Shown here piece by piece: positions 5,277-54,206 of a DNA stretch of 56,745 nt. Made by a program: the position numbers and the translations under genes. Source of the stretch: a virus. The notes beneath the pieces are model-generated. The model made no database searches and was not told the origin of the DNA. It saw only the letters and a list, made by a program, of their open reading frames with translations. Every line of letters starts with the position of its first letter. Within the stretch, counting starts at the first letter, position 1. The DNA is taken from IMG/VR virus record IMGVR_UViG_3300010400_000008, positions 1 through 56,745 of that record. One strand, 5' to 3'.

Positions 5277-6077
5277 ATGGCCGACCCCAATTTCTTTGGC
5301 TTCGACGCGACCGACGGCAAGGTGCAGCTGGCCAGCGCGGCCATCAGCTGTACCTTCACCGACACCGGCGATCTCGTCACCGCGAGCGCCCATGGCCTGG
5401 CCAACGGCACCGTTGTCGTGTTCCAGACCAAGGTCACGACCACGGGCCTGACGACGTTTGTCGAGTACTTCGTGATCAGCAGCACGACCAACACCTTCCA
5501 GATCGCCGCAACCTACGGCGGCAGCGCGGTCGCATTGACGACCGATGGCACCGGCACCTACAAGAGCATCGTCGAGGTCGATCTGCTGTTTCTGAATAAG
5601 GCCACGCCCAGCGCGGACAGCAAAGAGTTCACCTATGAGGGCGACGGCCTCACCCGCAAGCGCAAGAAAACCACCGGCTACCAGGTCGTGCTGGCGGCTG
5701 ACTGCCTGACCCAGGACGCGCGCGAAACGATCTACGCCAAGACGCCCATCACGACCGGCCTGCCGGCTGCCTACACCCGCGCGATCTACGAGGGCGACAC
5801 GACCGAGACCAACGGCGTCTCGTGTGGCATCTGGATCGAGGGCACCGCCACCAAGGTGGACGCCACGACCGGCATCGAGAGCCAGGTCACGACGCGGCGC
5901 TGGTGGCCCGTGGGGACACTCAGCTACGACGGCCCACCCGAGCAGCAGACCGCCGACAAGTTCGGCCTCGACCAGTACACCTTCACGGCCTCGAAAACAT
6001 CGGTGGATATCTGCGGCGGCGCGCTGCCCGCGACCATCCCCAGCGGCGGCGTGTTCCAGGTGTTCATGGAGAAGTAG
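5277..6077 (+). CDS. Major tail protein (tail tube) with inserted Ig-like domain
   Basis: A 266-residue protein with an excellent GAGGAG Shine-Dalgarno 7 bases before ATG. The C-terminal half (YEGDGLTRKRKKTTGYQVVL... FGLDQYTFTASKTSVDICGG) looks like a siphovirus tube protein. Residues about 20-95 form a beta-rich module (VTASAHGLANGTVVVF ... EYFVISSTTNTFQIAA) of the type inserted in many phage tail and fibre proteins. It precedes the chaperones and tape measure. High confidence from synteny. Confidence 0.75.
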   Translation: MADPNFFGFDATDGKVQLASAAISCTFTDTGDLVTASAHGLANGTVVVFQTKVTTTGLTTFVEYFVISSTTNTFQIAATYGGSAVALTTDGTGTYKSIVEVDLLFLNKATPSADSKEFTYEGDGLTRKRKKTTGYQVVLAADCLTQDARETIYAKTPITTGLPAAYTRAIYEGDTTETNGVSCGIWIEGTATKVDATTGIESQVTTRRWWPVGTLSYDGPPEQQTADKFGLDQYTFTASKTSVDICGGALPATIPSGGVFQVFMEK

Positions 6078-6097
6078 GCCACCGAACCGACTCGCCG

Positions 6098-6125
6098 GAA
6101 AAGTGGACCAATTGGTCCACTTTTC
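6098..6125. terminator. 28-bp perfect palindrome, terminator or operator
   Basis: Centre TGGACCAATTGGTCCA with flanking A4/T4 tracts, in the gap between tail tube and chaperone genes; a half site TTGGTCCACTTT follows at 6131-6142. As RNA it gives an 11-bp stem, AATT loop and T4 tail, so it can act as a weak bidirectional terminator reducing expression after the tail tube gene. Close copies sit at 36497-36520 and 43464-43487, so a protein-binding role is equally possible. Confidence 0.55.
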
Positions 6126-6190
6126 GGCCCTTGGTCCACTTTCCCCCCCCGCTTGACACTTCACTTGACATCACCCCAATGGAGGCCCCT

Positions 6191-6634
6191 ATGGCGCTAC
6201 GCAAAGAGTTTCTCCTCGCCAACGGCACGCCAGCCGTGTTCGAGATGCCCGATATGCTGGCCCTCATCAGCGGCAATGTCGACATCCCCAACAGCGCGCT
6301 GGCCGATGTCCTCGATCTCGCGCTGGGCGGATCGTTCGCAGCCGACGCGGATGAGCAGCTGGCCGGCAACAAGCGCTACGTCCGTGCGGTCTACGAGCTC
6401 GCAGCGCTCTGCCTCGTGACACCGAAGGTCTATATCCCACGCGGCAAGAAGGTGCGCCCGCTACGCGAGGGCGAGATCGGCACGCAGGATCTGGCCTGGG
6501 CGGAGGTGGTGACGCTGTACAACTGGTTTCGCTACGGCGTTCCCGCAAGCCTACCCGCTGCCGCGCCTCTCCAGCCTGGAGTCGGTGACGCAACTGCACC
6601 AGCTGGCGACGACCTACCACACGACGCCGAGTAG
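6191..6634 (+). CDS. Tail assembly chaperone (G)
   Basis: A 147-residue protein starting MALRKEFLLANG after a GGAGG. Located between tail tube and tape measure, it has the length and acidic/helical character of the first tail assembly chaperone. In the frame +1 relative to it, an open frame (6513-6785) continues with sensible protein sequence, so a fraction of ribosomes is probably shifted to make a G-T fusion. The unshifted C-terminus is Pro/Ala-rich and looks disposable. Confidence 0.7.
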   Translation: MALRKEFLLANGTPAVFEMPDMLALISGNVDIPNSALADVLDLALGGSFAADADEQLAGNKRYVRAVYELAALCLVTPKVYIPRGKKVRPLREGEIGTQDLAWAEVVTLYNWFRYGVPASLPAAAPLQPGVGDATAPAGDDLPHDAE

Positions 6635-6791: not shown

Positions 6792-9197
6792 ATGTCTGGA
6801 TTCGACGCCGGCGCAGCGGTCGCCAAATACACGATCGACTACGGCCAGGCCCGTGAGGCGGGCGCCGCGCTGCACTCGATCTATGCTGGCCTGCGGCAAG
6901 ACAGCGCGGCGCTGGGCACGGCATCGCGCCAGGTCGAGACCGGCTTCACGAGCCAGTCAGCGGCGGCGCGGAAGGCGCTCGCTGACTTCGAGCGGCTCGA
7001 TCGGCAGTACACCGCTATCCGGGATAGCGAGATCCGCGCGGCCCGTGCATCGGGCGACCACGCCAAGGCGCTGGAGCTCATTGATGTGCAGCTGAAAGCC
7101 GCCATCCCCGGCACGACGCGCTATAACACCCTGCTCGCGCAGCAGGCAACGGTGACACGGCAGGCCGCACAGGCCCAAGGCGGCGGCGACGGGCTGAGCG
7201 GCAGTCTGCTCGGCGTTGCCGGATCGCTCGTAGTGGCTGCTGGAGGGTTTACCCTCGTGACGCGCGCCGTCCAGAGCTTCGCCGACGCCTTTGATTTCAA
7301 GGTCAAGCTCGACGCGACCAACCTATCAATCAGCAACCAGCTGCGCGGCGTGCGCGATCTCGGCCAAACCTTTGGCGAGGCGCGGCAGTTCGGCGAGCGC
7401 TACAAAATTACCCAGGCTGAAACCAGCGAGATACTCCAGAACTCTATTGGTGTGTTGCGCTCATCGACGAGCAGCGTTGCCGAGCTCGAGTCGGTCCTGA
7501 TCCGGCTTCAATCCCGCGACCCTTCGAAGCCCATCAGCGAGGCCGCCAGGGCACTGCGCGAGCTCAACACCGGCGATGTCACGACGATCAAGGAGATCTT
7601 CAATATCGGCGCCGCTGATGCGCTCAGAATGAAGAATGAGATCGCCAAAGGCGGCGACGCGGTGCAAGTGCTTTCCGCGTTCCTCACCAGCGCGGGCAAT
7701 GGCATGGAGGTGCTGGATCAGCGGACACAGGGTATCGTCGGCAAGCTCAACGACGCGACGGTTCAGGCTGAGAAGTTCCAGTTGGCGCTGGCGGGCAAGG
7801 CCGGCGGGCCTGGTGCAGTGCTCCTCGACTTCAAGACGAATCTGTTCAAAGAGTTCACTGCTATTTTGAGTGGTGACTTCTCGGAGATCGAGGCCCGCAA
7901 CCGCAAAAACGAGCTGGCGCAGCTGGCCTACAACGACGCAATCGCGCAGGGTAAAAACGATGCCGAGGCCTACGCCGTCGCGCAAGGCATCCTGAACGGT
8001 ACGACCAAGACCGTAGACGATCTGACGCTTGAAGCGGTCAACGCGCTGCGGCAGCGGGTGCTGGCAAGCGGCCCGGCAATCACCGGCATGCAGCAGGAGA
8101 TCAGCGGCGCGATCGCCGCCGGGAACGCTGCGCGCCAGCATGCGGACGCATTGGGCGCGCAAACCGTTAAGACCCTGCAAGCAAATGCAGAGGCGGAGAA
8201 GCAGCGGCGTGTAATGGCTCTGATTGCGCAGCAATCGGGGCTGGTCCAGAAGGGCTTTATCACCCAGGCGCAGGGCGTCGCGGTGTTACGCGGCGAGCTC
8301 GGCAGTGCCGCCGATGAGGCGCTACGGCTCCAGGCGGAGCTGGGGCGCGCGGCGGCTGTTTCTGCCCAGAAAGACGCGCCGACCACCAGCGCCGAGCGGA
8401 GCTTGCTGGCGAAGGCCAACGCCGGTCAGGGCGACGCAAGCGAACGCCTGAAAAAGGAAAAGGCGTTCCGTGATGCACAAAAGCAGTTCCAGCAGGATCT
8501 GCTCCGCTTCGACTCACCCGCCGCGCAGCTGGCCGCCAAGCGGCGCGAGCTGGCCGGCATCGCCGCCGACGACCCCAAGCGCTTCACGGTGCAGCTCGAC
8601 ATCCGCCGCCTCCAGGAGCAGATCGAGGCGGAGCGCCTGCGCACTGCCAAGTCGCATACCTCCGAACTTAATAAGCAGCTCGGCCTGAACGAGTCGATCT
8701 ACGACAGCCAGCAAAAGCAGCTCGACGCGCAGCTGAAGGGGCAGGAGCTGGCCATCCGCAACCGCCAGGAGACCCGCAAAGAGGACCAGGAGCTGCGCAT
8801 CAATCAGAACGCCCTGGCCCACGCCAAAGACCCGCGCTTTCGGGCGGCCGCCCAGGACGCGATCGACCTGATCAACGTCCACCGCCAGCAGCGGGCGCTC
8901 GACCTCGCGCAGAACGGCGCTATCACAGCCGCCCCGATCGTCAACGGGCGCCTGTTGCAGAGCCTGGCCGGCGGCGGCACCCCTGGCGCGCCCGCCAGCG
9001 CCGGCGCCGGTCCCCTGTCGGGCGGGCGCCCAGGCGGCGGCGCCACCCCCGGCGCAGCGGGCGGTATCACCATCATCAATCAATTCCAGCTCGACGGCAA
9101 AACCGTGCTGGAGGTCATCAACCCGCTTATCGCGCAGCAGCTGCTCGACGCCATCACGGGGCGCGGCAACAGCGGCGGCGCGCAGGTGGCCTCATGA
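6792..9197 (+). CDS. Tape measure protein
   Basis: An 801-residue protein following the chaperones, as in nearly all siphoviruses. It has long Ala/Gln/Lys-rich coiled-coil segments, a hydrophobic stretch near residues 135-155 (LLGVAGSLVVAAGGF) for membrane passage, and a Gly/Pro-rich C-terminal region ending in a compact beta domain. By the usual relation of residues to length the tail would be around 120 nm. No lytic domain was seen. Confidence 0.88.
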   Translation: MSGFDAGAAVAKYTIDYGQAREAGAALHSIYAGLRQDSAALGTASRQVETGFTSQSAAARKALADFERLDRQYTAIRDSEIRAARASGDHAKALELIDVQLKAAIPGTTRYNTLLAQQATVTRQAAQAQGGGDGLSGSLLGVAGSLVVAAGGFTLVTRAVQSFADAFDFKVKLDATNLSISNQLRGVRDLGQTFGEARQFGERYKITQAETSEILQNSIGVLRSSTSSVAELESVLIRLQSRDPSKPISEAARALRELNTGDVTTIKEIFNIGAADALRMKNEIAKGGDAVQVLSAFLTSAGNGMEVLDQRTQGIVGKLNDATVQAEKFQLALAGKAGGPGAVLLDFKTNLFKEFTAILSGDFSEIEARNRKNELAQLAYNDAIAQGKNDAEAYAVAQGILNGTTKTVDDLTLEAVNALRQRVLASGPAITGMQQEISGAIAAGNAARQHADALGAQTVKTLQANAEAEKQRRVMALIAQQSGLVQKGFITQAQGVAVLRGELGSAADEALRLQAELGRAAAVSAQKDAPTTSAERSLLAKANAGQGDASERLKKEKAFRDAQKQFQQDLLRFDSPAAQLAAKRRELAGIAADDPKRFTVQLDIRRLQEQIEAERLRTAKSHTSELNKQLGLNESIYDSQQKQLDAQLKGQELAIRNRQETRKEDQELRINQNALAHAKDPRFRAAAQDAIDLINVHRQQRALDLAQNGAITAAPIVNGRLLQSLAGGGTPGAPASAGAGPLSGGRPGGGATPGAAGGITIINQFQLDGKTVLEVINPLIAQQLLDAITGRGNSGGAQVAS

Positions 9198-25740: not shown

Positions 25741-28721
25741 CCCGCCACCTCCATCGCTTCCGCCAGCCGCGCCTGCGCGTCGCCGATCCGCCGCGCCAGA
25801 TCCTCGTAGGCGTCGGTCGGGATCGTCGTGTCGTCGGCGAGAAGGTCGAGCCGGCGCCGGCAGTCGGCCAGCAGGCTGCGCGGGGTTATGCCAGTGTGGC
25901 CCCGCGCGACCTGGCCCTCGGCGGTGTCCAGCATCGAGGCGATCGCCGCCAGCGGGTCGGCCTCCAGCTCCGCCAGCGTCGGCGGTAGGCCGTGCTCGCT
26001 CAGCTCGGCCGGCATGGGCGCGTAGGGGGCTGGCGTCGCCGCCAGGAGCACGGCCACATGCTGCGCCGCCTGCTGCATCTCGTCATAGCGAAACATCGTG
26101 CTGGCCGGCGCCCGCTGAAGCGTGGCCGACATCTGGCCCAGCCAGGCCGCCGCCGCCTCGCGCGGCGTGGGCGTGCCGCTCGCGAAGCGCCGCAAGGTCA
26201 TCGCCAACGAGTGGTACATGGCGAGCGCCTCGTCGTAGGTGTAGTTGCCCGTTGTGCCGTCCGCCCAGACGATGTAGTGCCATACCCCGTCATCGTTGAC
26301 GATCGGCGTGTGGTACTGCGCGCCCAGCTGCTCGCGCAGGTCGTGCTCCTCTTCTCGCGCCGCGCAGGCCCGACAGCGATCGGCTAATGTCCCGCCGATG
26401 TTGTGGCGACCCACGCTCAGGTTGCCGCACGCGCACACCGGCGCCGCGCGCGCCGCATCCAGCCCGGCGAGATAGCCCAGCTCGTTCAGTGACATGTCGC
26501 CCGGCAGGATCTCTCCATCGCGCAGCCAGTTCGCGCCGCTCCAGTCGTAGCCCGCCAGCCACAGCGCGTCGATCAGGTCGTCGGGCGCATCGGGTAGGTC
26601 ATCTTCGTAGAGCCGCGCGCGCCAGGCGAGCAGCGCCAGGTGGGCGAGGTCAGACGCCGCGATCGCCTCGAACTCGTCATGGATCGCCGTGTAGGCGTGG
26701 AGGCCCGCCGGGCAGTCCGGGACGTAGATCACGCGCCAGGCGTGGTCAGTCAGCTCAGCCAGCGGGCGCGCCAGCTGTGTGGCCTCTGCAATCAGCGCGG
26801 CCGGGTCGTCGCCGCTGAGGGCCAGGCCGCAGGCGTGGCGCATGCCGATCGTGGTGTCGCCGTCGTTCCGCCAGATGGTCCAGCCGGCGGGGGCCGTGGG
26901 CAGGGCGGGCGCAATCGGGGCGGCCGGCTGCTCGATCGCCTCCAGCCGGCTCAGCACACCGTGCCAGGTGGCATTGCCGATACCGGGATGCGGCGCGGGC
27001 GGGTACATGGCGTAGCGATCGTCGGGATAGAAGCCGGGCTTGGTTACGCGCCAGCCGAGTGCTTGGAAGCGCGCCAGCACGGCATCAAAATCGGGCGGGA
27101 TGTCGCACGGCCAATCCCCGACCCCGGCGCGTGGTTGAGTCGTTGCCGCCGGCGGTCCATCCTCGCTCGCGCTGACCGCCGCTGCCAGCTCGTCGGGTGT
27201 GGCATCGGGCCGCTCGACGGCGAGTGCCGCCAGCGCGATCACGCCGGCGGCATCGGTGGCGTAGGCGTCGGCGCCCTTGGCCAGCCGGTACTCGGCGCCG
27301 GCGCGGCGTATCGTCCAGCCGCATGCCTCCAGTTGCCGCTCGGCTGCGACGGTGAGCCGGTGGGCAGCGGCGGCCGGCGCCCGCTGCTGTAGCTCCGCAT
27401 GGGTCTGCTCCTGCTTGTGCAACTCGATGCACAGCGACATCCAGCTGGCGACGTTTGCGACGCCGTTCAGGCCAGCATCGAGCAGGCTGTAGCCCTTCTC
27501 ATCCCGGCTGAGTGTCAGCCCGATCGCCTGCGCCCGTGCCTGCGCAGCGGCGTACTCGGCCGGCGTCGGCGCGTTTTTCGCGTTGCTTCGATCGCGGGCC
27601 TGCGCCTCGCTCTGCGCCGTCATCGTGGCGCTGGCGCAACGCGGGCAGAGCAGCTTGCCATCGATCTGCATCGAGCCTGGGGCGCCGTAGGGAGCGCCGC
27701 AGCCGCCTTCGCAGGAACGCGCCGGCGGCTCTATCGGCGGCACGCCGGGCAGGATTTTAATCCGCTGGTCGGTGATGACCAGTTCCTCGTTGCGATACCG
27801 CGCGAGGGTGCCAGGGCCGTTGCGCCCGTGCTTGGTCCAGGCCGCCACCTGACCAGGGTAGGCCGCACGCGACACCACCGCGCAGCCCTCAGCCGAGAGA
27901 AATGCCCCCGCCTTCGATAGCGAGGCGATACAGGCCCAGCGGCGGCCCGCGTAGTCGAACATGATAATCTTGCCCGTCTCGCTGTAGCTCATGGCCACAT
28001 TCTGCGCCGCAGCCCGATTGAGCAGGGAGGTGTCATGCACGATCAGCGGGTTCGGGATGGCAGTAGGGGCGGGGAATCCATCGGCGTGATTGACTGCGCC
28101 ACGCGCCTGATTCGCCGCCGCAATGCCGCTGGTGTCCATCGTGCGCCCATCGGCGGTCTTGCGCGCACTGGACGCGCGTCCAGTGCTCAGCCCGTGGCGC
28201 TCGGCGATCAACGCCACAAACACGTGGCTGACCTTGCAGCGCCGCGCGATCTCGCGGTCACTCCACTGCCCCCACTCCTCGTCTTGTAGTAGCACCAGCA
28301 CCGCGCGCTCCTTGTCGGCCCTGGTGCGCCTCAGGCCGTGATCGGCATTGGCGCCGGCGGCGTAGAGTACCGCGTCGCGCCGCGTGCCCTGGCGCACCTC
28401 GGCCCGGATCGCCGTTGGCGGCGCGGGGCGCTCCAGGGCTTGGAGCTGCGTGTAGGCCTCGAGACGGTGGAAGCCATCGGCCAGCCAGTAGGCCGATCCA
28501 TCGTGAAAGACCACGATCGGCGGGATGCGCTCCAGGCCGTTCTGGACGGAACACAGCTCGCGCATCGCCTCGACATACTCCGCAACGGCCGCCGGGTCGA
28601 GCCCGGCGCGGGCCTGCGTGCCGCCATCGATGCGGATGTGCTCCGGGCGGATAGCGGTGATCAGGGTGGCGGCCGGCGGGTCGGTGGTGGCAACGGCAGG
28701 TTCGATTAAGTCAGTGGTCAT
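25737..28721 (-). CDS. Large multidomain ParB/Srx-like protein
   Basis: Encodes 994 residues from the ATG at 28721 (GAGG 5 bases upstream). Residues about 25-115 resemble the ParB N-terminal domain (IRIDGGTQARAGLDPAAVAEYV; WLADGFHRLEAY). A helix-turn-helix follows near 155-180 (SDREIARRCKVSHVFVALIAE). Near residue 330 there is a C4 zinc site (CEGGCGAPYG ... CPRC). The remaining 650 residues show repeated small alpha/beta units (WTIRRAGAEYRLAKG; WTIWRNDGDTTIGMR). This is far longer than usual phage ParB-like proteins. It may act as a CTP/ATP-dependent DNA-binding protein or nuclease. Confidence 0.65.
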   Translation of the reverse strand: MTTDLIEPAVATTDPPAATLITAIRPEHIRIDGGTQARAGLDPAAVAEYVEAMRELCSVQNGLERIPPIVVFHDGSAYWLADGFHRLEAYTQLQALERPAPPTAIRAEVRQGTRRDAVLYAAGANADHGLRRTRADKERAVLVLLQDEEWGQWSDREIARRCKVSHVFVALIAERHGLSTGRASSARKTADGRTMDTSGIAAANQARGAVNHADGFPAPTAIPNPLIVHDTSLLNRAAAQNVAMSYSETGKIIMFDYAGRRWACIASLSKAGAFLSAEGCAVVSRAAYPGQVAAWTKHGRNGPGTLARYRNEELVITDQRIKILPGVPPIEPPARSCEGGCGAPYGAPGSMQIDGKLLCPRCASATMTAQSEAQARDRSNAKNAPTPAEYAAAQARAQAIGLTLSRDEKGYSLLDAGLNGVANVASWMSLCIELHKQEQTHAELQQRAPAAAAHRLTVAAERQLEACGWTIRRAGAEYRLAKGADAYATDAAGVIALAALAVERPDATPDELAAAVSASEDGPPAATTQPRAGVGDWPCDIPPDFDAVLARFQALGWRVTKPGFYPDDRYAMYPPAPHPGIGNATWHGVLSRLEAIEQPAAPIAPALPTAPAGWTIWRNDGDTTIGMRHACGLALSGDDPAALIAEATQLARPLAELTDHAWRVIYVPDCPAGLHAYTAIHDEFEAIAASDLAHLALLAWRARLYEDDLPDAPDDLIDALWLAGYDWSGANWLRDGEILPGDMSLNELGYLAGLDAARAAPVCACGNLSVGRHNIGGTLADRCRACAAREEEHDLREQLGAQYHTPIVNDDGVWHYIVWADGTTGNYTYDEALAMYHSLAMTLRRFASGTPTPREAAAAWLGQMSATLQRAPASTMFRYDEMQQAAQHVAVLLAATPAPYAPMPAELSEHGLPPTLAELEADPLAAIASMLDTAEGQVARGHTGITPRSLLADCRRRLDLLADDTTIPTDAYEDLARRIGDAQARLAEAMEVAG
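28165..28188. repeat. Palindrome copy inside the ParB-like gene
   Basis: Contains CACTGGACGCGCGTCCAGTG (28166-28185, perfect 20-bp palindrome). Twenty-four bases here are identical to 41806-41829 in the early-gene region, where the palindrome extends to 28 bp. Within the gene it codes for the segment just after the HTH. A candidate binding site for the protein encoded here. Confidence 0.7.
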
Positions 28722-29560
28722 ACAAACCTCGTCTGGTGCTGGCCGGCTGCTGCGGCGTTCAGCCACAGCACCTCGGTGCGCGTATTGCCTTTCTCCGCTT
28801 GCGTTTCGATTTCGCGCGTCTGCCAGTGGCTGAGCCGCGCGGCGTACAGGTCATTGTGGTAGCCCGAGAGCAGCACCGGGCCGGGATGGGCATCCAGTGC
28901 GTCGCATAGGGCCAGGTGATCGGCGTCGGTCATCTCGTGGCGATAGAGCTTCTTCCGGTGGCCGTGGTCGGTGTGGCGCACGTAGGGCGGGTCGGCGTAG
29001 ATCAGCGTCTCTTTGGTTGCGTACCGACCGATCACGGTGAGCGCGGGCAGACACTCGATCTCGGCGTCTTTGAGGAGCGCTGCGGCAATGGCCAGGCGTT
29101 CGGGAAGATCTGCCCAGGTCTCGTAGGTGTCGGCCAGCTGGCGCGCCGTCGCTTTATGGCTTTTGTGGCGCCAGCCATTGCGCGTGCAGATCGTCGTCCC
29201 GTGCGCCTGCCAGGTGGCGACCAGGAAGCGGCGCGCGTCTTCAACGAGGTCGCCACTCTCGACGATCGCGCCCGCCGGGCCGCTCACCGCCAGGTACTCG
29301 GCACGTGACCAGGGCGTGAACGCAACGGCGCGAATGAGATCTGTCTGGCGCTCCCGCAGCGCGCGAAAAAACAAATTGATATAGCAGTCGCGATCGTTCA
29401 GCACCAGGTGGCGCGGCCGATACCACAGATTAAGCGCGAACGCGCCCGAGCCGCAGTACGCATCGACGACCCGCATGCACTGTGGCACGTGGGATTGCAG
29501 CCAGTCGGCCAGGCGCCACTTCGCACCGGGATACTTCAGGATGGCGTCAACAGTGCTCAT
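28718..29560 (-). CDS. dam: DNA adenine methylase (Dam/D12 class)
   Basis: Encodes 280 residues from the ATG at 29560, coupled by ATGA at both ends. Motif X-like KYPGAKW is at residues 9-15, the SAM-binding DAYCGSGAFALN at about 33-44, and catalytic DPPY at 190-193. These define the alpha-class N6-adenine methylases, many of which methylate GATC. Specificity is not proven. Its operon includes the replication genes and the origin there is packed with GATC, so methylation control or protection of the origin is plausible. Confidence 0.88.
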   Translation of the reverse strand: MSTVDAILKYPGAKWRLADWLQSHVPQCMRVVDAYCGSGAFALNLWYRPRHLVLNDRDCYINLFFRALRERQTDLIRAVAFTPWSRAEYLAVSGPAGAIVESGDLVEDARRFLVATWQAHGTTICTRNGWRHKSHKATARQLADTYETWADLPERLAIAAALLKDAEIECLPALTVIGRYATKETLIYADPPYVRHTDHGHRKKLYRHEMTDADHLALCDALDAHPGPVLLSGYHNDLYAARLSHWQTREIETQAEKGNTRTEVLWLNAAAAGQHQTRFV

Positions 29561-29871
29561 AGCTCCAGCTCCAGTTGCCCGCTGTCGACGCGCTTCCGCC
29601 GGCGGGTCGCGGCGGCGTGCGTGGCATGCATTGCGGCGTCGTAGCGCAGGTGGCAAGCGCTGCACCAGCCGCGCAGGTTCTCCCGCCGGCAGTCGGCCGG
29701 GTCGTGATTGAGGTGGGCCACGCTCATCGTGCGCTTGTGTGTGTCGAAGGGCTCGTCGGGCGCGCGGCACTGCATGCCGCAGCTCTGGCAGATCCAGTTG
29801 GCCGCGACCTTGACCGCCAGCGCGATGGCGTCCCAGTCGGGCGGGTAGGCGGCTTTATCCTTGACCGGCAT
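29557..29871 (-). CDS. HNH-type endonuclease-like protein
   Basis: Encodes 104 residues from the ATG at 29871 (GGAGGG 8 bases upstream). CQSCGMQC then SVAHLNHDPADCRRENLRGW and CSACHLRYD give the HNH signature with zinc cysteines. It starts a 4-base overlap with the Dam gene, a pairing reminiscent of modification plus cleavage, but small HNH proteins next to methylases in phages can also be involved in packaging or recombination. Confidence 0.7.
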   Translation of the reverse strand: MPVKDKAAYPPDWDAIALAVKVAANWICQSCGMQCRAPDEPFDTHKRTMSVAHLNHDPADCRRENLRGWCSACHLRYDAAMHATHAAATRRRKRVDSGQLELEL

Positions 29872-30103
29872 CGGTCGATCCCTCCTCAAACAGGGGCAGT
29901 TCGGCCGCGCCCGCCAAGCGCGCCTTGGTCGCCTCTGAGATAGCCTCGCTGTACCCACAGTCGCCACAGACGAAGCGCCGCCGGCGCACGGTCAGCACCC
30001 CACAACACCGCCCACACGGCCAGGCCGCGCGGAGCAGCGGACTGATCGCGAGCGGCAGCTGCGCCTGGATGTAGCGGCGCGCACGATCGTCAGCGTCGGG
30101 CAT
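29855..30103 (-). CDS. Small zinc-ribbon protein
   Basis: Encodes 82 residues from the ATG at 30103, with AGGAGG 6 bases upstream. CGRCCGVLTVRRRRFVCGDCG is a compact CxxC...CxxC ribbon between helices. It ends 17 bases inside the HNH gene. Possibly nucleic acid binding. Confidence 0.6.
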   Translation of the reverse strand: MPDADDRARRYIQAQLPLAISPLLRAAWPCGRCCGVLTVRRRRFVCGDCGYSEAISEATKARLAGAAELPLFEEGSTDAGQG

Positions 30104-30311
30104 CCCAATCCTCCTGCTGCCGCTTGAGCCAGTCCGGCGCGGCCTGATCGTCGTTCCGTGGCGCGTTGCGGATGGCTGCGTGGCGCTCCCGGCACACATC
30201 CAGGAAGCCCGCGTGGAGGTCGGCGGCGGCGGCAGCGCCGTAGCGCCGCGCGATCTCGTCCCACAGCCACGCGAACGGATTCGGGCGGCCGGGTGGTGCG
30301 GTGTCAGGCAT
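30090..30311 (-). CDS. Small hypothetical protein of the replication operon
   Basis: A 73-residue protein with Trp-rich helices (NPFAWLWDEIARRYGAAAA; DWLKRQQEDWDARR). It overlaps the next gene by 14 bases; the ribosome site GGGGG is weak. No family recognised. Confidence 0.5.
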   Translation of the reverse strand: MPDTAPPGRPNPFAWLWDEIARRYGAAAAADLHAGFLDVCRERHAAIRNAPRNDDQAAPDWLKRQQEDWDARR

Positions 30312-30320
30312 GGCATCCCC

Positions 30321-30707
30321 CTACGCCGCCTGGGGCGTGGCCACGCCCCACAGCGAGAGCGAGAGCCGCAGCTGCGGCGTGATGGCCAGCGGCTGCCGCG
30401 TGGGCGCGGCCGGCGGGGCGGGCGTGTGGCCGACCGCCGCCTGAAGCGCCCGGAGGCGAGCGGCAAAGGCCGGATCGTCTCTGGCCAGGCGCCCACAGCG
30501 CTCGGTGTAATAACACACCGTCGTGTGGTCGCGTCCTAAGAGCAGGCCGATCTCGACCACGGTGTAGCCGTGGTCGCGCAAGATCGCCGTGATGGCGATG
30601 CGCGCCTGGGTGATACGGGCCCGGCGCCCGCGCCCGCTGCGCAGGTCGGCGACGGGCACGGCGAACAGCGCTGCGGCGGCGGTGATGACGGTGGCGGGGT
30701 CGATCAT
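30321..30707 (-). CDS. Stand-alone DnaA domain IV-like DNA-binding protein
   Basis: A 128-residue protein. Residues about 8-78 match the C-terminal DNA-binding domain of DnaA: ARITQARIAITAILRDHGYT, VVEIGLLLGRDHTTVCYYTE; RDHTTV is the DnaA signature contacting the DnaA box. Domains I-III (oligomerisation, ATPase) are absent. The tail is Pro/Ala-rich. It is coupled by ATGA to the helicase-loader gene. It might bind DnaA boxes in the phage or host origin, either recruiting or blocking initiation. Confidence 0.82.
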   Translation of the reverse strand: MIDPATVITAAAALFAVPVADLRSGRGRRARITQARIAITAILRDHGYTVVEIGLLLGRDHTTVCYYTERCGRLARDDPAFAARLRALQAAVGHTPAPPAAPTRQPLAITPQLRLSLSLWGVATPQAA

Positions 30708-31624
30708 GTCACCACCTCGTCGCGGTCCCAGGGGTCGAGCTCGTGGGCGATCGGCCGCACATCGGCGCCGCCCATCTCGACCAGGTGAAAGCGCCCATCG
30801 CGGATGCGGCTGGCCAGGAAGCTGGGGATGCGCGCCGCGCCATCCAGGTTGTAGCCGATGATCGTGCCGTACTGCGCCCGGCCCTGGTAGCGCGCCAGGA
30901 AGATGGCGTTCAGCACATCATCGACGAACGGGCTATCGCGGATCTTGTCCAGCTCATCGACCGCCAGGATCGGCGCTGCAATCAGGCGCCGCAGCCGCTC
31001 GCCATATAGCTCGGTGCCGATCGCGTCCCTGAGTTCGTTGAGCAGCTCGGGCATCATCACGTAGCGGCCGTAGATGCCCCGATCGGCCAGGTGGTTGAGC
31101 GCGGCGTAGATCAGCATCGTTTTGCCCACGCCATAGCCGCCGGCCAGGGTCAGCCAGCCGCGCGGCTGCACGATAAAGGCCCGAATCTTGGTACGGGCGG
31201 CGTCCTGCTCCGGCACGCGGCGGATGCGGCCGTTGGTCAAGCGCACGTCGTCGGCCTCCTCGGGCAGATTGCGCCATTTCTTCGCGCGCGCCTGGCCCGC
31301 CGCACAGGCGCAGGGGATGAGCGCCGGCGCATCGTCGCCATCGCCAAAGGTGTCCAGGATGACTAACCTATCGGCGCGCGCGGTGGCCTGCCGCTCCAGC
31401 AGGGTGCCGTGGCCGCTACACCGGCAGGTCGTCGTCGTCAAGCGGGCCGGCGGCTTCGATCTGGGCGAGCAGGGCGTCGTAGTCGACCGGGGCGGCGCTG
31501 CTGGCAGCTCGCGGCGGCCGATCATATCCACGACCACGTCGCCCATCGCCACCATGGGGGCGCTTGGGGGGTCGCTGATCATCAGCAGGTCGCTCGGGGC
31601 GATCCGCAGTATCTTGTTGTTCAT
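30704..31624 (-). CDS. DnaC/IstB-like AAA+ helicase loader
   Basis: Encodes 306 residues if started at the ATG at 31624. Cys pairs CRC and PCAC (about residues 67-106) form the zinc-type N-terminus common in phage DnaC proteins. Walker A GGYGVGKT is at 162-169, Walker B ILAVDELDK near 219-227. It should load the host DnaB helicase at the phage origin (lambda P role). The true start is uncertain: 31416-31624 is overlapped in another frame by the initiator C-terminus. The open frame extends further up to 32038 without a stop. Confidence 0.78.
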   Translation of the reverse strand: MNNKILRIAPSDLLMISDPPSAPMVAMGDVVVDMIGRRELPAAPPRSTTTPCSPRSKPPARLTTTTCRCSGHGTLLERQATARADRLVILDTFGDGDDAPALIPCACAAGQARAKKWRNLPEEADDVRLTNGRIRRVPEQDAARTKIRAFIVQPRGWLTLAGGYGVGKTMLIYAALNHLADRGIYGRYVMMPELLNELRDAIGTELYGERLRRLIAAPILAVDELDKIRDSPFVDDVLNAIFLARYQGRAQYGTIIGYNLDGAARIPSFLASRIRDGRFHLVEMGGADVRPIAHELDPWDRDEVVT

Positions 31625-32576
31625 GGCTTTGTCGTGCCTTTCTTCGTTCATAGGCCGGGGTGTCGCTGCCATAGCTGGCCGTGTCGCGCCAGCGATCGAG
31701 CGTCGATCGGATCGCCTTGACCGATCGGATGTCGCGCGAGATCGCCACCGCCAGAATCGCGCGGCCGACCCAGTAGAGGCCGTGGCCGCCGGTCGATTCG
31801 TTGTGTGCCAGCGCCATGGCGGCCAGCTGGCGCAGATCGAGCGGTCGCGGGTGCGGGCAGGCGTCGCGCCAGAGGTCGACCGGGTGCGCGGGCAGCGGCA
31901 GCTCCCCCTCGGGTGGCGGGGGCGGCGGAGCCGTGTTTGGTGGCAGGAGCTCCAGGGCCGCCTGCTGTTTTTTCGCGCGCGCGCGATCTCCTTCCTTCCT
32001 TCCTTCCTTCCTTCCTTCCAACGTGATCGATCGATCACGGTCGCCGTGATCCTTTGATAACGGTTGCCGTGATCGATCGATCACGGTGTCTGTGATCGAT
32101 CGATCACGGTCGCCGTGATCCTTTGATAACGGTTGCCGTGATCGATCGATCACGGTGAGATCCATCTCGGTTTGCAGTTCATGGCGTCCCGATGGCTTGC
32201 GCAAATTGCGTGTGCCGAGCTTGGCGAGATGCACCTGCGCGTCGCGATTCGAGGCGTCTAAAATCGATTCCCACGGGATTCGGTAGATCGGACGGTCAAA
32301 CTTGCCACCTTTGACCTCCTCGTACCCGACGATCTCGAGGAGATTCAGGGCGACCAGGTCGGTCAGCCAGCCCGTGACTCGGGGGTAGGCGCTGGTCCCC
32401 ATCTCGTCGGCGATCTCGCGGCTGCCGAACGCCGTGCGCTCGGTCAGGTCCATCAGTGCGCGGATCGCCAGCCAGCAGGCCAGCTGGTGCGGCGTGCAGC
32501 GCTTGCGCACCACGAACGGCACGCCGGTTTCGACCGCACGGTCCAGAATGTCACGGAGCATGCCGTGTGTTTTCAT
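31416..32576 (-). CDS. Replication initiator with internal origin (lambda O-like)
   Basis: Encodes 386 residues from the ATG at 32576. The N-terminal 130 residues are a winged helix (FVVRKRCTPHQLACWLAIRA; FGSREIADEMGTSAYPRVTG; LNLLEIVGYEEVKGGKF). Residues about 141-190 are encoded by the iteron array and contain two copies of a 23-residue repeat VIDRSRQPLSKDHGDRDRSI..., then EGRKEGRKEG encoded by the TTCC tract. A helical C-terminal domain (LRQLAAMALAHNESTGGHGL) probably binds the loader made from the next gene. Order initiator-origin-loader equals lambda O-ori-P. Confidence 0.78.
   Translation of the reverse strand: MKTHGMLRDILDRAVETGVPFVVRKRCTPHQLACWLAIRALMDLTERTAFGSREIADEMGTSAYPRVTGWLTDLVALNLLEIVGYEEVKGGKFDRPIYRIPWESILDASNRDAQVHLAKLGTRNLRKPSGRHELQTEMDLTVIDRSRQPLSKDHGDRDRSITDTVIDRSRQPLSKDHGDRDRSITLEGRKEGRKEGDRARAKKQQAALELLPPNTAPPPPPPEGELPLPAHPVDLWRDACPHPRPLDLRQLAAMALAHNESTGGHGLYWVGRAILAVAISRDIRSVKAIRSTLDRWRDTASYGSDTPAYERRKARQSHEQQDTADRPERPADDQRPPKRPHGGDGRRGRGYDRPPRAASSAAPVDYDALLAQIEAAGPLDDDDLPV
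31990..32019. repeat. Tetranucleotide tract (CCTT)7.5 within the initiator gene
   Basis: Seven and a half uninterrupted CCTT units (AAGG on the coding strand) next to the iterons. It codes for EGRK repeats in every frame. Such tracts change length by slippage. Loss of one unit (or gain of two) would move translation into the frame that is open from 32038 to the end of the loader gene at 30704. Confidence 0.95.
32022..32154. other. Replication origin: six iterons at 23-bp period
   Basis: Iterons of 18 bp start at 32022, 32045, 32068, 32091, 32114 and 32137. Four are the palindrome CGTGATCGATCGATCACG (first base T at 32091) and two are CGTGATCCTTTGATAACG, in order P-D-P-P-D-P, separated by 5-bp linkers. 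Each P holds three GATC sites and each D one, 14 in all. The site lies in the initiator gene as in lambda, so it is almost certainly the initiator-binding part of the origin. Confidence 0.88.
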
Positions 32577-45889: not shown

Positions 45890-45964
45890 TGCGGTGTGGG
45901 GGAACGGTACCCCGTTGGGCTCATAACCCAAAGATAGCGAGTTCAACTCTCGCCACCGCTCCCA
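45890..45964 (+). tRNA. Initiator-type tRNA-Met (CAT)
   Basis: Cloverleaf: acceptor TGCGGTG/CACCGCT with an unpaired T1:T72, D arm GGGG-AACGGTA-CCCC, anticodon arm TTGGG-CTCATAA-CCCAA, variable AGATA, T arm GCGAG-TTCAACT-CTCGC, discriminator C and encoded CCA. The mismatch at 1:72 and three consecutive G:C pairs under the anticodon loop are the hallmarks of initiator tRNA-fMet, not elongator Met or Ile2. It follows a small gene and precedes a strong terminator. Confidence 0.88.
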
Positions 45965-47940: not shown

Positions 47941-48692
47941 TGCCGACGATCGACCGCACCACCTATCAAAAGGCTACGCGGCCGATTGGCTCGGGCTACG
48001 ACCGCCGTGTGAAGGGCGTGACGCCGCGCAAGCTGGTTATCCACACGACCAACGGCAATCGCGGCAGCAGCTTCGCGGCCGAGTGCCGCTACTGCGTCAA
48101 CAGCAACGCGATCGGCATCCACTATGAGATCGGCAAGGAGGGCCAGATCGTCGAGCAGCTCGATCCCATGTGGCGTGCCTGGCACGTCGGCCGCAGTCTG
48201 CCGGGCTGGGGCAACAACGACGCGATCGGCGTCGAGTGCCATCACGCCGTTGGTGAGGCCTGGACACCCGCGCAGCACGATGCGCTCACCTGGCTGACCA
48301 AGGAGCACCTGATGCCGCGCTACGGCATCACGCCCGCCGCTATCGACACCCACCGCGCGGTGGCGCTGCCCCACGGCCGCAAAGTCGATCCGAGCGACTG
48401 GTCCGATGCATGGTTCTACGCCTGGCGCGCGGCGCTCAGTGGCCTGGCCTATGTGCCGCAGCCCGCGCGCCTGGCCAGCTACATCACCACGACCGCCGTC
48501 AACGTGCGGCAGGGGCCGAGCCGCGCGAAACCGATCGCCTTGGATGGCCATTGCGTGTTAGCGAAAGATTTTGCGTTCCAGAGCGATGTGACGGTGCAGG
48601 GCGAGGCGATCGGCGGCAACGGCACATGGGTGCATCTGGTCGTCCCGGCCGCCTGGGGCTTCGTGCATAGCTCGTGTGTGAGGCGGGTATGA
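47940..48692 (+). CDS. Endolysin II: N-acetylmuramoyl-L-alanine amidase with SH3b
   Basis: A 250-residue protein. Amidase_2/PGRP-type domain with LVIHTTNG (first zinc His, residue 35), IGIHYEIGKEGQIVEQ, NDAIGVECHH, and DTHRAVALPHGRKVDPSDW. Residues about 185-250 are an SH3b wall-binding domain (TAVNVRQGPSRAKPIALDGH). It overlaps the glucosaminidase stop by one base (TGATG). Two enzymes cutting glycan and stem peptide act together. Confidence 0.88.
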   Translation: MPTIDRTTYQKATRPIGSGYDRRVKGVTPRKLVIHTTNGNRGSSFAAECRYCVNSNAIGIHYEIGKEGQIVEQLDPMWRAWHVGRSLPGWGNNDAIGVECHHAVGEAWTPAQHDALTWLTKEHLMPRYGITPAAIDTHRAVALPHGRKVDPSDWSDAWFYAWRAALSGLAYVPQPARLASYITTTAVNVRQGPSRAKPIALDGHCVLAKDFAFQSDVTVQGEAIGGNGTWVHLVVPAAWGFVHSSCVRRV

Positions 48693-51083: not shown

Positions 51084-52551
51084 GCTTGACATCCGCCTGC
51101 GCGCCGAGCAGGAGAAGCGCCGGCGCGAGGCTGCGCAGGGCGATGCCCCGCCGCCACTGACCTTCCGTGCCTACATCGCGCTGGTCAGCCCCAAGTATCA
51201 GTTCTACCGCCACTGCAAGGAGCTGATCGCCGTTTTACAACAGGTCGCCGACGGCACACTCACCCGCGTGATGGTCTTCGAGCCGCCGCGCCACGGCAAG
51301 AGCGAGCTCGTCTCGCGGCTCTTCCCGGCCTACTACCTCTACCGCTACCCGGATCGCTTCGTCGGCCTGGCCAGCTACGGCGCCGACCTGGCCTACACCC
51401 TCAGTCGCGCAGCTCGTGAGTTCTATCTGCGCGGCGGTGGGCAGCTCCACAAGGCCAGCCGCGCGGTCAAGCAGTGGCTGACACGGGAGGGCGGGGGGCT
51501 CTGGGCGGCCGGTGTGGGCGGCCCCGCGACCGGCAAGGGATTTCATCTTGGCATTATCGACGACCCGATCAAGGACGCCAAGGAGGCCGCCAGCGAGGCC
51601 AAGCGCGCCGGCGACCAGGATTGGTACGGGTCGGTCTGGACCACCCGCGAGGAGCCCGGCGGCGCGATCGTTATTGTCCAGACGCGCTGGAGCGAAGCCG
51701 ATCTTTCAGGCTACGTCCTGGAGCTGGAGGCCGAAGAGCCCGAGCGCTGGTATATCGTGCATCTGCCGGCGATCTGTGACCCCGACGATCTGCCAACCTA
51801 CCCCGCGACCTGCACGGTCCATCCCGACTGGCGTGAGCCCGGCGAGCCGCTCTGTCCCGAGCGCTACCCCCTGGAGCGGCTCAAGAAGGTCGCCAAGCGC
51901 ATCCGCGAGTACTTCTTTGGCGCGCTGTTTCAGCAGCGGCCGCGGCCCCGATCAGGCGGCATGTTCCGCCGCCAGGATCTCGAGCATATTGTCGGCGCAG
52001 CCCCCCGCACGGCGCGCCGGGTGCGCTACTGGGATCTTGCCGGGGCCGACCAAGGCAAGGGCGACTGGACGGTCGGGGCGCTCGTGGCCCTCCACGCCGA
52101 TCGCATCGTGATCGAGGATGTCGTGCGCGGCCAGTGGCCCGCCGCCGAGCGCAACGCCGTCATCCGCCAGACCGCCCGCGACGATCGACGGCGCGGCACG
52201 GACGCCACCTACATCGAGCAGCCGCCAGGGCTCGCCAAAGAGGCCTGCGACACCATCATTCGGCTGCTGCTGCTCGACGGCGTAGTGGCCCGCGCGGACC
52301 CGGTGCATGGCGACAAGGTCAGCCGGGCCGAGCCGCTGGCCGCCTGCTGCCAGGCCCAGCTGGTCGACCTGGTTGCGGGGGACTGGCACCGCGCATTCTT
52401 CGAAGAGCTGGAGTCCTTCCCCCACGGCAAAAACGACGACCAGGTCGACGCCGGCGCGGGCGGGGTCAACCGCCTGCTCGACCCGACCCAGTGGCAATCT
52501 GAGGAACCCGACGAGGACGACGAGGAAGGCATTCGCATCAGCACGCTATGA
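51022..52551 (+). CDS. terL: Terminase large subunit
   Basis: A 509-residue protein. Walker A PPRHGKS at residues 88-94, Walker B LGIIDD at 176-181, nuclease Asp in YWDLAG (338) and later YIEQPPG and DDQVDA, consistent with the terminase_6 (GpA/TerL) RNase H fold. It packages DNA into the prohead through the portal encoded next. Starts inside the small-terminase frame. Confidence 0.93.
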   Translation: MSKSNGSGPATTRSRSSSAAELDIRLRAEQEKRRREAAQGDAPPPLTFRAYIALVSPKYQFYRHCKELIAVLQQVADGTLTRVMVFEPPRHGKSELVSRLFPAYYLYRYPDRFVGLASYGADLAYTLSRAAREFYLRGGGQLHKASRAVKQWLTREGGGLWAAGVGGPATGKGFHLGIIDDPIKDAKEAASEAKRAGDQDWYGSVWTTREEPGGAIVIVQTRWSEADLSGYVLELEAEEPERWYIVHLPAICDPDDLPTYPATCTVHPDWREPGEPLCPERYPLERLKKVAKRIREYFFGALFQQRPRPRSGGMFRRQDLEHIVGAAPRTARRVRYWDLAGADQGKGDWTVGALVALHADRIVIEDVVRGQWPAAERNAVIRQTARDDRRRGTDATYIEQPPGLAKEACDTIIRLLLLDGVVARADPVHGDKVSRAEPLAACCQAQLVDLVAGDWHRAFFEELESFPHGKNDDQVDAGAGGVNRLLDPTQWQSEEPDEDDEEGIRISTL

Positions 52552-54206
52552 GTGACCCGACCGCCACCCCCGATTTTCACGGCATCATCGAGTCGCAGTC
52601 CTTTGCGATCGAGGAGCTGACCGAGCGCCTGGCCGAGCTGGAGCTTGCGCTGGAGGATGTCGGCTACGAGCGCCTGGGCGACAATGGCCGCGAGTTCAGC
52701 GCCGCTGCACGACTGCGGATCGTAGAGATGGCGCGGCTCATGGCGCTCAAAAACCCGCTGATCAAGCGCGGTATCGCCGTCCAGGTGTTCTACGTCTGGG
52801 GCCAGGGCGTGACGATCAAGGCCGCCGACGACCGGATTAACGATGTGGTGCAGGCCTTCCTCGACGACGAGAAGAACCAGGCCGAGTTGACCAGCCACCA
52901 GGCGCGCGAGCAGAAGGAGCGCGAGCTCCAGGCCGATGGCGAGATCTTCTTTGTGCTCTTCCCCAACGCCAACACCGGCCGCGTGCGCGTGCGCTCGATC
53001 CCGGTCCAAGAGATCGCCGACATCATCACTGACCCAGAGGACGCCAAGTCCCCGCGCTACTACAAGCGCGTGTGGCAAAGCACCGAGATCAACCCCACGA
53101 CTGGGCGGATGAAAACCAGCCAGCAAACCGTCTACTACCCCGACTGGCGCTACACCCCGAAAACAAAACCCACGACCATCGGTCGCCACAAGGTCGCCTG
53201 GGAGACCCCGATCTACCATATTAAGGTCGGTGGGTTCAGTGACTGGAAGCGCGGCGTCAGCGAGGTCTACGCGGCCATCGACTGGGCACGGGCGTACAAA
53301 GAGTTTATGGAGGACTGGGCGACCTTAACCCGCGCGCTCAGCCGCTACGCCTGGAAGATCGCGACCAAGGGCGGCAAGCGCGGGGTGGCAGCCGCCAAAG
53401 ACCGCCTCGGTACCACGCTGGGGGGTAGCGCAGCCCTCGGCCCGGACACCAACCCGCCGGCGACCGTGGGCGCAACCTGGATCGGCGCCGAAGGCAACGA
53501 CATCCAGCCGATGCGCACCGCCGGCGCCACCGTCTCGATGGAGGATGGCCGGCGCTTGCAGCTCATGGTCAGCGCGGCACAGGGCCTCCCTGAGACGTTC
53601 TACGGCGGCGTGAAAGAGGGCTCGCTCGCCACCGCCAGCAGCCTCGACCGGCCGACCGAGCTCATGATGCGCAGCCGCCAGACGCTCTGGCAGGCGATCT
53701 ACACCGCACTCCTGGGCTATGCGGTGCTCTGGGCAGTCAAGGCCATCTCCGGGCCGCTGCGCGGGCTGGCGACGGTAATCAAGGAGCCCGACGGCGATGA
53801 GTATAGCGAAATCCTGACGTGGAAGACGGAGACGGTCGAGGGTGACGACGGCACAACTACCACGCAGGAGATTAATCACCGCGTCGACGTGACCTTCCCC
53901 GCGATCGTGGCGGCCGACCGCAAGGCTGACGTGGAGGCCGTGGTCCAGGCAGACACGCTGGGTGGCAAGCCCGGAGTCACCTTCGATCGCAAGACGCGGC
54001 TCCGGCTGCTTTTGCAGGCGCTCGGCATCCCCGATGTCGATGCCGTGATGGACGAGGTGCTGGAGGCGCTGGACAAAGAAGCAGAGCAGGCCGCTGCGGT
54101 CGCGGCTGAGCAGGCCAAGCAGGCCGCCCAGGCCGCAGCGGTGCCGCCTGCACCAGCGCCTGGCGAGCAACCGCCACCAACCGTTACCCAGAAACAGGAG
54201 ACCTAA
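52548..54206 (+). CDS. Portal protein
   Basis: A 552-residue protein in ATGA overlap with the terminase gene. A coiled-coil N-terminus, MALKNPLIKRGIAVQVFYVW, then the portal-type core ERELQADGEIFFVLFPNANT and PVQEIADIITDPED; C-terminal Ala/Gln-rich tail (AAAVAAEQAKQAAQAA). Order terminase-portal-protease supports the call. Confidence 0.85.
   Translation: MSDPTATPDFHGIIESQSFAIEELTERLAELELALEDVGYERLGDNGREFSAAARLRIVEMARLMALKNPLIKRGIAVQVFYVWGQGVTIKAADDRINDVVQAFLDDEKNQAELTSHQAREQKERELQADGEIFFVLFPNANTGRVRVRSIPVQEIADIITDPEDAKSPRYYKRVWQSTEINPTTGRMKTSQQTVYYPDWRYTPKTKPTTIGRHKVAWETPIYHIKVGGFSDWKRGVSEVYAAIDWARAYKEFMEDWATLTRALSRYAWKIATKGGKRGVAAAKDRLGTTLGGSAALGPDTNPPATVGATWIGAEGNDIQPMRTAGATVSMEDGRRLQLMVSAAQGLPETFYGGVKEGSLATASSLDRPTELMMRSRQTLWQAIYTALLGYAVLWAVKAISGPLRGLATVIKEPDGDEYSEILTWKTETVEGDDGTTTTQEINHRVDVTFPAIVAADRKADVEAVVQADTLGGKPGVTFDRKTRLRLLLQALGIPDVDAVMDEVLEALDKEAEQAAAVAAEQAKQAAQAAAVPPAPAPGEQPPPTVTQKQET

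Follow-up and report, generated by a model that had tools for sequence, protein, structure and literature searches.

The virus record IMGVR_UViG_3300010400_000008, analysed here over its full 56,745 bases (the window), contains a portal gene and, on the minus strand, a cluster of eight co-directional ORFs that run from 32576 down to 25737, neighbouring ones either overlapping or being separated by no more than 9 nt (Table 1). The proposal of the sequence-only reading that a GATC-rich repeat array and an adenine methyltransferase belong to the same operon can be kept as a prediction, its basis being the tight packing of these eight ORFs as seen from their coordinates. The methyltransferase gene lies 2.5 kb downstream of the array within the cluster. 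It is followed directly by the gene of a ParB-like protein, the two sharing 4 nt where the methyltransferase stop and the start of the ParB-like ORF meet; ParB and methyltransferase genes are neighbours in PV036457 too. As for the portal protein, the nearest annotated phages in the matches listed are the Methanoculleus viruses Blf4 and L4768, and its relatives are scattered over Methanoculleus, Arthrobacter and other hosts, with less than 41% identity among the matches listed.

Table 1. Position, strand and basis of assignment of the features of the window.
Feature	Position	Strand	Basis or remark
Array P-D-P-P-D-P, six dyads, 23-bp spacing, 14 GATC	32022..32157		Probable initiator-binding iterons (origin)
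TCCT microsatellite, 7.8 perfect copies, abutting array	31989..32019		Repeat call
Initiator-like ORF, 386 aa	31416..32576	-	Named by position and L009 counterpart
DnaC-like helicase loader (AAA+)	30704..31624	-	phrog_50 4.9e-18, PF01695
DnaA domain-IV DNA-binding protein, 128 aa	30321..30707	-	PF08299 37.6 bits, cut-off 31.5
Small ORF, 73 aa	30090..30311	-	Without Pfam match
Small ORF, 82 aa	29855..30103	-	Without Pfam match
HNH endonuclease-like ORF, 104 aa	29557..29871	-	phrog_1571 6.8e-17
D12-class adenine methyltransferase, 280 aa	28718..29560	-	PF02086, phrog_56
ParB-like protein, 994 aa	25737..28721	-	phrog_1033 1.3e-20
tRNA-Met (CAT)	45890-45964	+	ARAGORN and Rfam
tRNA-Arg (CCG)	48353-48433	+	ARAGORN only
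Portal gene	52548-54206	+	Best annotated-phage match 40.7%

The array is formed by two kinds of dyad set at exactly 23 bp from each other: P (GTGATCGATCGATCAC), present in four copies with 3 GATC apiece, and D (GTGATCCTTTGATAAC), present in two copies with 1 GATC apiece. P reads GTGATC-GATC-GATCAC, that is, a half-site, a 4-bp spacer and a second half-site, and D reads GTGATC-CTTT-GATAAC; ten of the 12 half-sites are GTGATC and two are GTTATC. The count given in the sequence-only reading, 14 GATC in 133 bp with three per P and one per D, is borne out. Ten of these sites lie inside the half-site GTGATC, the other four constitute the 4-nt spacer of P, and all six dyads contain at least one. This density is a real local peak, since the maximum in any other 133-bp stretch of the window is 7. 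For the window as a whole, 557 GATC were observed versus about 309 expected from dinucleotide shuffles, which is a weaker null than trinucleotide composition; with the latter 521 are expected (ratio 1.07), so there is no window-wide excess that needs explanation, and genome-wide selection for GATC was ruled out by this expectation. Moreover, the 14 sites are not independent, because P-D-P is present as a tandem duplication of period 69 with 100% identical copies and because P repeats one palindrome. The density of the array is thus the density of one copied palindrome. The exact P palindrome occurs once in each of three other viral contigs.

As single-stranded DNA, the array is predicted to fold with -59.6 kcal/mol (z -12.5) into two long hairpins, one per P-D-P, and the inverted repeats I6 and I7 were detected in it. 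The GC content drops no lower than 0.52 at the array, compared with 0.67 overall, and no strongly AT-rich tract was found. The one standard DnaA box in the window lies at a great distance from the array, at position 48037, and the D elements fit only a relaxed DnaA-box pattern of our own making, of which they provide two of the seven matches.

The array falls within the open frame of the initiator-like ORF, of which it codes residues ~141-185. The third-position GC in this frame is 0.81 before the array, 0.54 within it and 0.77-0.79 after it, and the frame therefore appears to be coding on both sides; in the 180-base steps that include the array, a different frame is slightly higher. The duplication preserves the reading frame because 69 is a multiple of three, which 23 is not, and as a result some 23 residues occur twice in the initiator-like protein. 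The abutting TCCT microsatellite codes the EGRKEGRKEG stretch of the same protein. At its end, the ORF shares ~209 nt with the loader ORF, and there the loader frame dominates. Pfam, phrog and other profile searches gave no family match for the initiator-like ORF, Phage_rep_O included, and its single-sequence structure model is poor (pLDDT 42). Relatives of the initiator and the loader were not found in viral contigs other than the one described below.

In phage lambda, the helicase-loading gene lies next to the initiator gene. Of the marks of a lambda-O-type in-gene origin, the window shows two, namely tandem repeats within the frame of the initiator-like ORF and an adjoining helicase-loader gene. 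As to a third, an N-terminal winged-helix DNA-binding domain in the gene product, the window ORF matched no family, and its counterpart in the relative L009 (see below) matches HTH_36; as to a fourth, an AT-rich opening region by the repeats, GC is 0.52 at the array. According to part of the text of PMC8022706, lambda, P22 and phage L have different iterons each, located within the initiator coding sequence; the window resembles lambda gene O/ori, P22 gene 18 and phage L gene 18 in having probable in-gene iterons. Unlike these phages, it has six dyads spaced at 23 bp whose half-sites include GATC, and genes for a DnaA-IV protein, an HNH protein and a methyltransferase follow. Among the loci of the enzyme's relatives, in-gene arrays are found repeatedly in initiator ORFs, among them ORFs of the families Phage_rep_O, DnaD_N, HTH_36, DnaB_2 and Lin1244_N.

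The nearest relative, L009 (IMG/VR contig 3300005985_000007), encodes an enzyme that is 76% identical to that of the window, in the same gene order: initiator, loader, DnaA-IV, methyltransferase. Its initiator-like HTH_36 ORF (5323-6213), which replication-initiation families match weakly, contains an in-gene array at ~5626-5738, and the initiator and loader ORFs overlap as they do in the window. The dyads, mostly 21 bp apart as compared with 23 bp in the window, combine half-sites of the TTTGATC and TTTGACA types around 4-bp spacers (e.g., TTTGATC-N4-GATCAAA), in place of the GTGATC and GTTATC of the window; in the five dyads counted, three have GATC at all, and of the ten half-sites five contain it. 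In both genomes a protein that comprises hardly anything beyond DnaA domain IV is encoded between loader and methyltransferase (7369-7731, +, in L009), which could possibly be a DnaA-box competitor or a helper. The loaders are 30.6% identical and the DnaA-IV proteins 34%, and similarity was undetectable both between the two initiators and between the ParB-like sequences. The enzyme, with 76% identity as against 31-34% for loader and DnaA-IV protein and an undetectable initiator, may therefore have had a different history from the origin genes. An HNH-methyltransferase restriction pair was considered and set aside; no HNH ORF was found in L009.

At least two copies of the dyad core TGATC-N4-GATCA were found in 2 of the 146 sequences searched, namely the window and L009. 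Given that the two initiators show no detectable similarity, we see in the shared core the strongest argument for GATC being constrained from outside, and one that we are unable to dismiss. Methylation would explain it, and so would two initiators that have kept the same recognition helix. The in-gene repeats, the initiator-like ORF, the DnaC-like loader, the DnaA-IV protein and the corresponding layout of L009 make it plausible that the array is a replication origin, as the sequence-only reading had it. On these sequence features, an origin is the likely reading, and the array together with its gene cluster resembles replication origins of a type well known from phages.

Regarding the methyltransferase, it matches PF02086 with 66.9 bits (cut-off 22), and its motifs follow the alpha order: YPGAK, DAYCGSG, target region and DPPY, the last at residues 190-193. 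The earlier assignment to alpha-class adenine methylases with DPPY is thus confirmed, its "FxGxK-like" motif being Y-P-G-A-K. Besides the D12 fold, the alpha order and DPPY are common to E. coli Dam, T4 Dam, DpnM and the window enzyme, and the identity of the first three with the last is ~19-21%. The structure model (pLDDT 92) has E. coli Dam as the nearest solved structure (Z 25.8, 2.3 A over 233 residues), tied with Mcbe1 (Z 25.1, 2.5 A over 234 residues). Since the predicted fold is equally near to both, it does not indicate the target.

The label "Dam-family", in its curated sense, is not supported: with TIGR00571 the window enzyme obtains 56.3 bits, below the cut-off of 114.85, compared with 352.9 for E. 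coli Dam and 239.5 for T4 Dam. As a passage of PMC10073500 describes, Dam residues 118-139 form a hairpin that is conserved in GATC enzymes, with R124 and P134 reading the site. E. coli Dam has RYNLRGEFNVPFG at this hairpin, and T4 Dam has RINDKGNFTTPFG. Its signature ([FY]xxP[FY]G), searched with a strict and a loose pattern, was found in 0 of 133 group members (the window and 132 relatives); the strict pattern matches E. coli Dam and T4 Dam, and DpnM shows FNVPYG. At the place of the hairpin the window enzyme has TRNGWRHKSHK, modelled with a confidence below that of the rest of the protein. The implied reading of GATC by this enzyme is therefore not supported, the hairpin of GATC enzymes being missing. 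A GATC target is still compatible with this absence, because the GATC enzyme of the lactococcal phage Phi93 has, according to a portion of PMC4190342, only an NPPY motif and differs from other Dam enzymes.

The enzyme belongs to the phrog_56 group, for which one scan gave 57 viral loci; the group also comprises 95 phage records and 411 matching stretches, 80 of them kept in genomes. To relate the group to GATC, 140 loci were scanned for arrays and 35 had one; the sequence and ORF were read for 15 arrays and then for 18 more. The 15 families kept were the window, L009, L086, L031, L140, L094, L017 (with L040 and L109), L061, L134 (with L138), L080, L072, L093 (with L129), L112, L127 and L035, where the ORF of L035 matches no family and the grouped sets were Pfam-scanned in part of their members. 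L027 (terminase small subunit) was dropped, as were L013, L081, L100 and others that were not judged to lie in initiator-like ORFs; the dropped arrays include four with some GATC (L042 1, L106 1, L115 3, L153 1). Arrays with any GATC were found in 4 of the 15 families, where the length of the unit and the GATC density of the locality would lead one to expect 1.61 (p 0.065), and in 3 of 14 versus 1.41 (p 0.16) when the window, picked for its GATC, was left out; an earlier count of 11 families had given p 0.115, or 0.28 without the window. The remaining 11 of 15 array families have no GATC at all, and in L031 it is present in two of four units.

The L086 and L094 enzymes, sisters at 100/99 support and 75% identical, accompany arrays with 7 and 0 GATC, respectively. 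The median ratio of observed to expected GATC over the 140 loci is 0.94, and some loci are very poor in the site: 2 observed versus 71 expected in L122, 1 versus 38 in L139, 3 versus 48 in L127 and 5 versus 49 in L105. L011, which falls in the supported clade of the window enzyme (98/95), has 11 versus 31. Taken together, the GATC-poor loci, the contrast of L086 with L094 and the case of L011 make it unlikely, as far as sequence comparison goes, that the group as a whole is GATC-specific; for the window's own branch the matter may be different. L122, L139, L127, L105 and L073 have a relative of the enzyme, yet their observed/expected ratios are 0.03-0.15, perhaps owing to host defences that target GATC.

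Origins controlled by methylation are known elsewhere. P1 oriR requires GATC methylation, and P1 carries its own dam gene. The more general claim of the sequence-only reading, that GATC methylation gates initiator binding in other replicons, holds for RctB of Vibrio chromosome II: in the part of PMC2865523 that deals with it, all RctB 11- and 12-mers contain GATC and full methylation improves binding, and a high GATC density is described as not typical of plasmid origins. The window shares with Vibrio cholerae oriII repeated initiator sites, putative in our case, that contain GATC; the effect of methylation on binding has been demonstrated for RctB, while the window array is known from its sequence. 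An origin gated in the oriII manner would be expected to have GATC at each of its initiator sites and to retain it among relatives. All six dyads of the window have it, but the pattern does not hold in the relatives: it is present in three of five dyads and five of ten half-sites in L009, and absent from the arrays of 11 of the 15 families. The GANTC enzymes of Sinorhizobium phages lie in replication modules, a location that, in a passage of PMC5537653, is read as hinting at regulation, and an excerpt of PMC10711547 on gut phage methylomes offers GATC methylation of phage replication as a possibility only. No phage with GATC iterons and a D12 enzyme of its own was recognised among the papers listed by literature searches, as judged by titles and the first lines of abstracts.

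In our opinion, the best explanation, to which we give a probability of about 70%, is a lambda-O-type in-gene origin that has GATC in its half-site, with the methyltransferase as an orphan enzyme of the phage and not a switch of the origin. The array would be the initiator-binding part of the origin, placed in a linker-coding stretch of the phage's initiator gene. The initiator would bind dyads of two half-sites, GTGATC or GTTATC, 4 bp apart; the DNA would open nearby, and the helicase would be recruited through the DnaC-like loader encoded by the next gene, with the DnaA-IV protein perhaps aiding or competing. GATC would be present as part of the half-site, its number having been raised by the in-frame 69-bp duplication. 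The methyltransferase would be a mobile phage orphan of the D12/phrog_56 group whose modification, at whatever motif, most likely protects the phage DNA from restriction. Several points weigh against this explanation: the initiator-like ORF is recognised by no family model and has a poor structure model, a different frame has slightly higher third-position GC in the steps over the array, no strongly AT-rich tract was found, the dyad core is shared with L009, and array families with GATC number 4 where 1.61 were expected.

A different possibility, the one put forward in the sequence-only reading, is that the phage enzyme methylates the GATC of the iterons and that the methylation state, be it full, hemi- or none, changes the affinity of the initiator, in which case freshly replicated or injected phage DNA would be treated differently. 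The 14 GATC of the array, the adenine methyltransferase encoded within one gene cluster with it, at least one site in every window dyad, and the joint presence of GATC dyads and a 76% identical enzyme in the window and L009 all speak for it, as do the modelled proximity to E. coli Dam (tied with Mcbe1), the RctB precedent (part of PMC2865523) and the replication-module location of the GANTC phage enzymes (a passage of PMC5537653). However, a fold in common with Dam does not confer specificity, and the enzyme stays below the Dam cut-off and lacks the hairpin signature; 75% identical enzymes are found beside GATC-bearing and GATC-free arrays, relatives reside in GATC-poor DNA, and half of the L009 half-sites do without GATC. 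We consider it unlikely for these reasons. A more elaborate form, in which a D12 enzyme of a group without the Dam hairpin recognises GATC through another loop and sets initiator affinity, the three abutting GATC of each P dyad serving to distinguish injected, replicating and packaged DNA without host Dam or SeqA, would give the phage replicon a switch of its own; we regard it as quite doubtful.

The methylation might also come from the host, with the initiator reading it and the phage enzyme being irrelevant. The position of GATC in the half-sites fits with this, and RctB relies on host Dam (part of PMC2865523), but half of the half-sites in L009 lack the sequence, and among the explanations weighed here we find this one the hardest to believe. 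Finally, the array could serve, within the initiator gene, chiefly as an operator or as an element that forms hairpins when single-stranded, acting in autoregulation or strand-specific priming, and not as an iteron origin. Its strong predicted fold with two long hairpins and the inverted repeats I6 and I7 agree with such a role; nevertheless, any evenly spaced run of palindromes would fold likewise, and the gene order and the relatives indicate an in-gene origin, so that we judge it very improbable.

If the in-gene origin with an orphan methyltransferase is the true reading, the window adds one more in-gene phage origin and provides a useful, uncharacterised initiator/iteron pair from a divergent phage. 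If, on the other hand, the enzyme does methylate the iterons, the phage would encode, in a self-contained form, an epigenetic control of its replication, together with a new kind of GATC reader.
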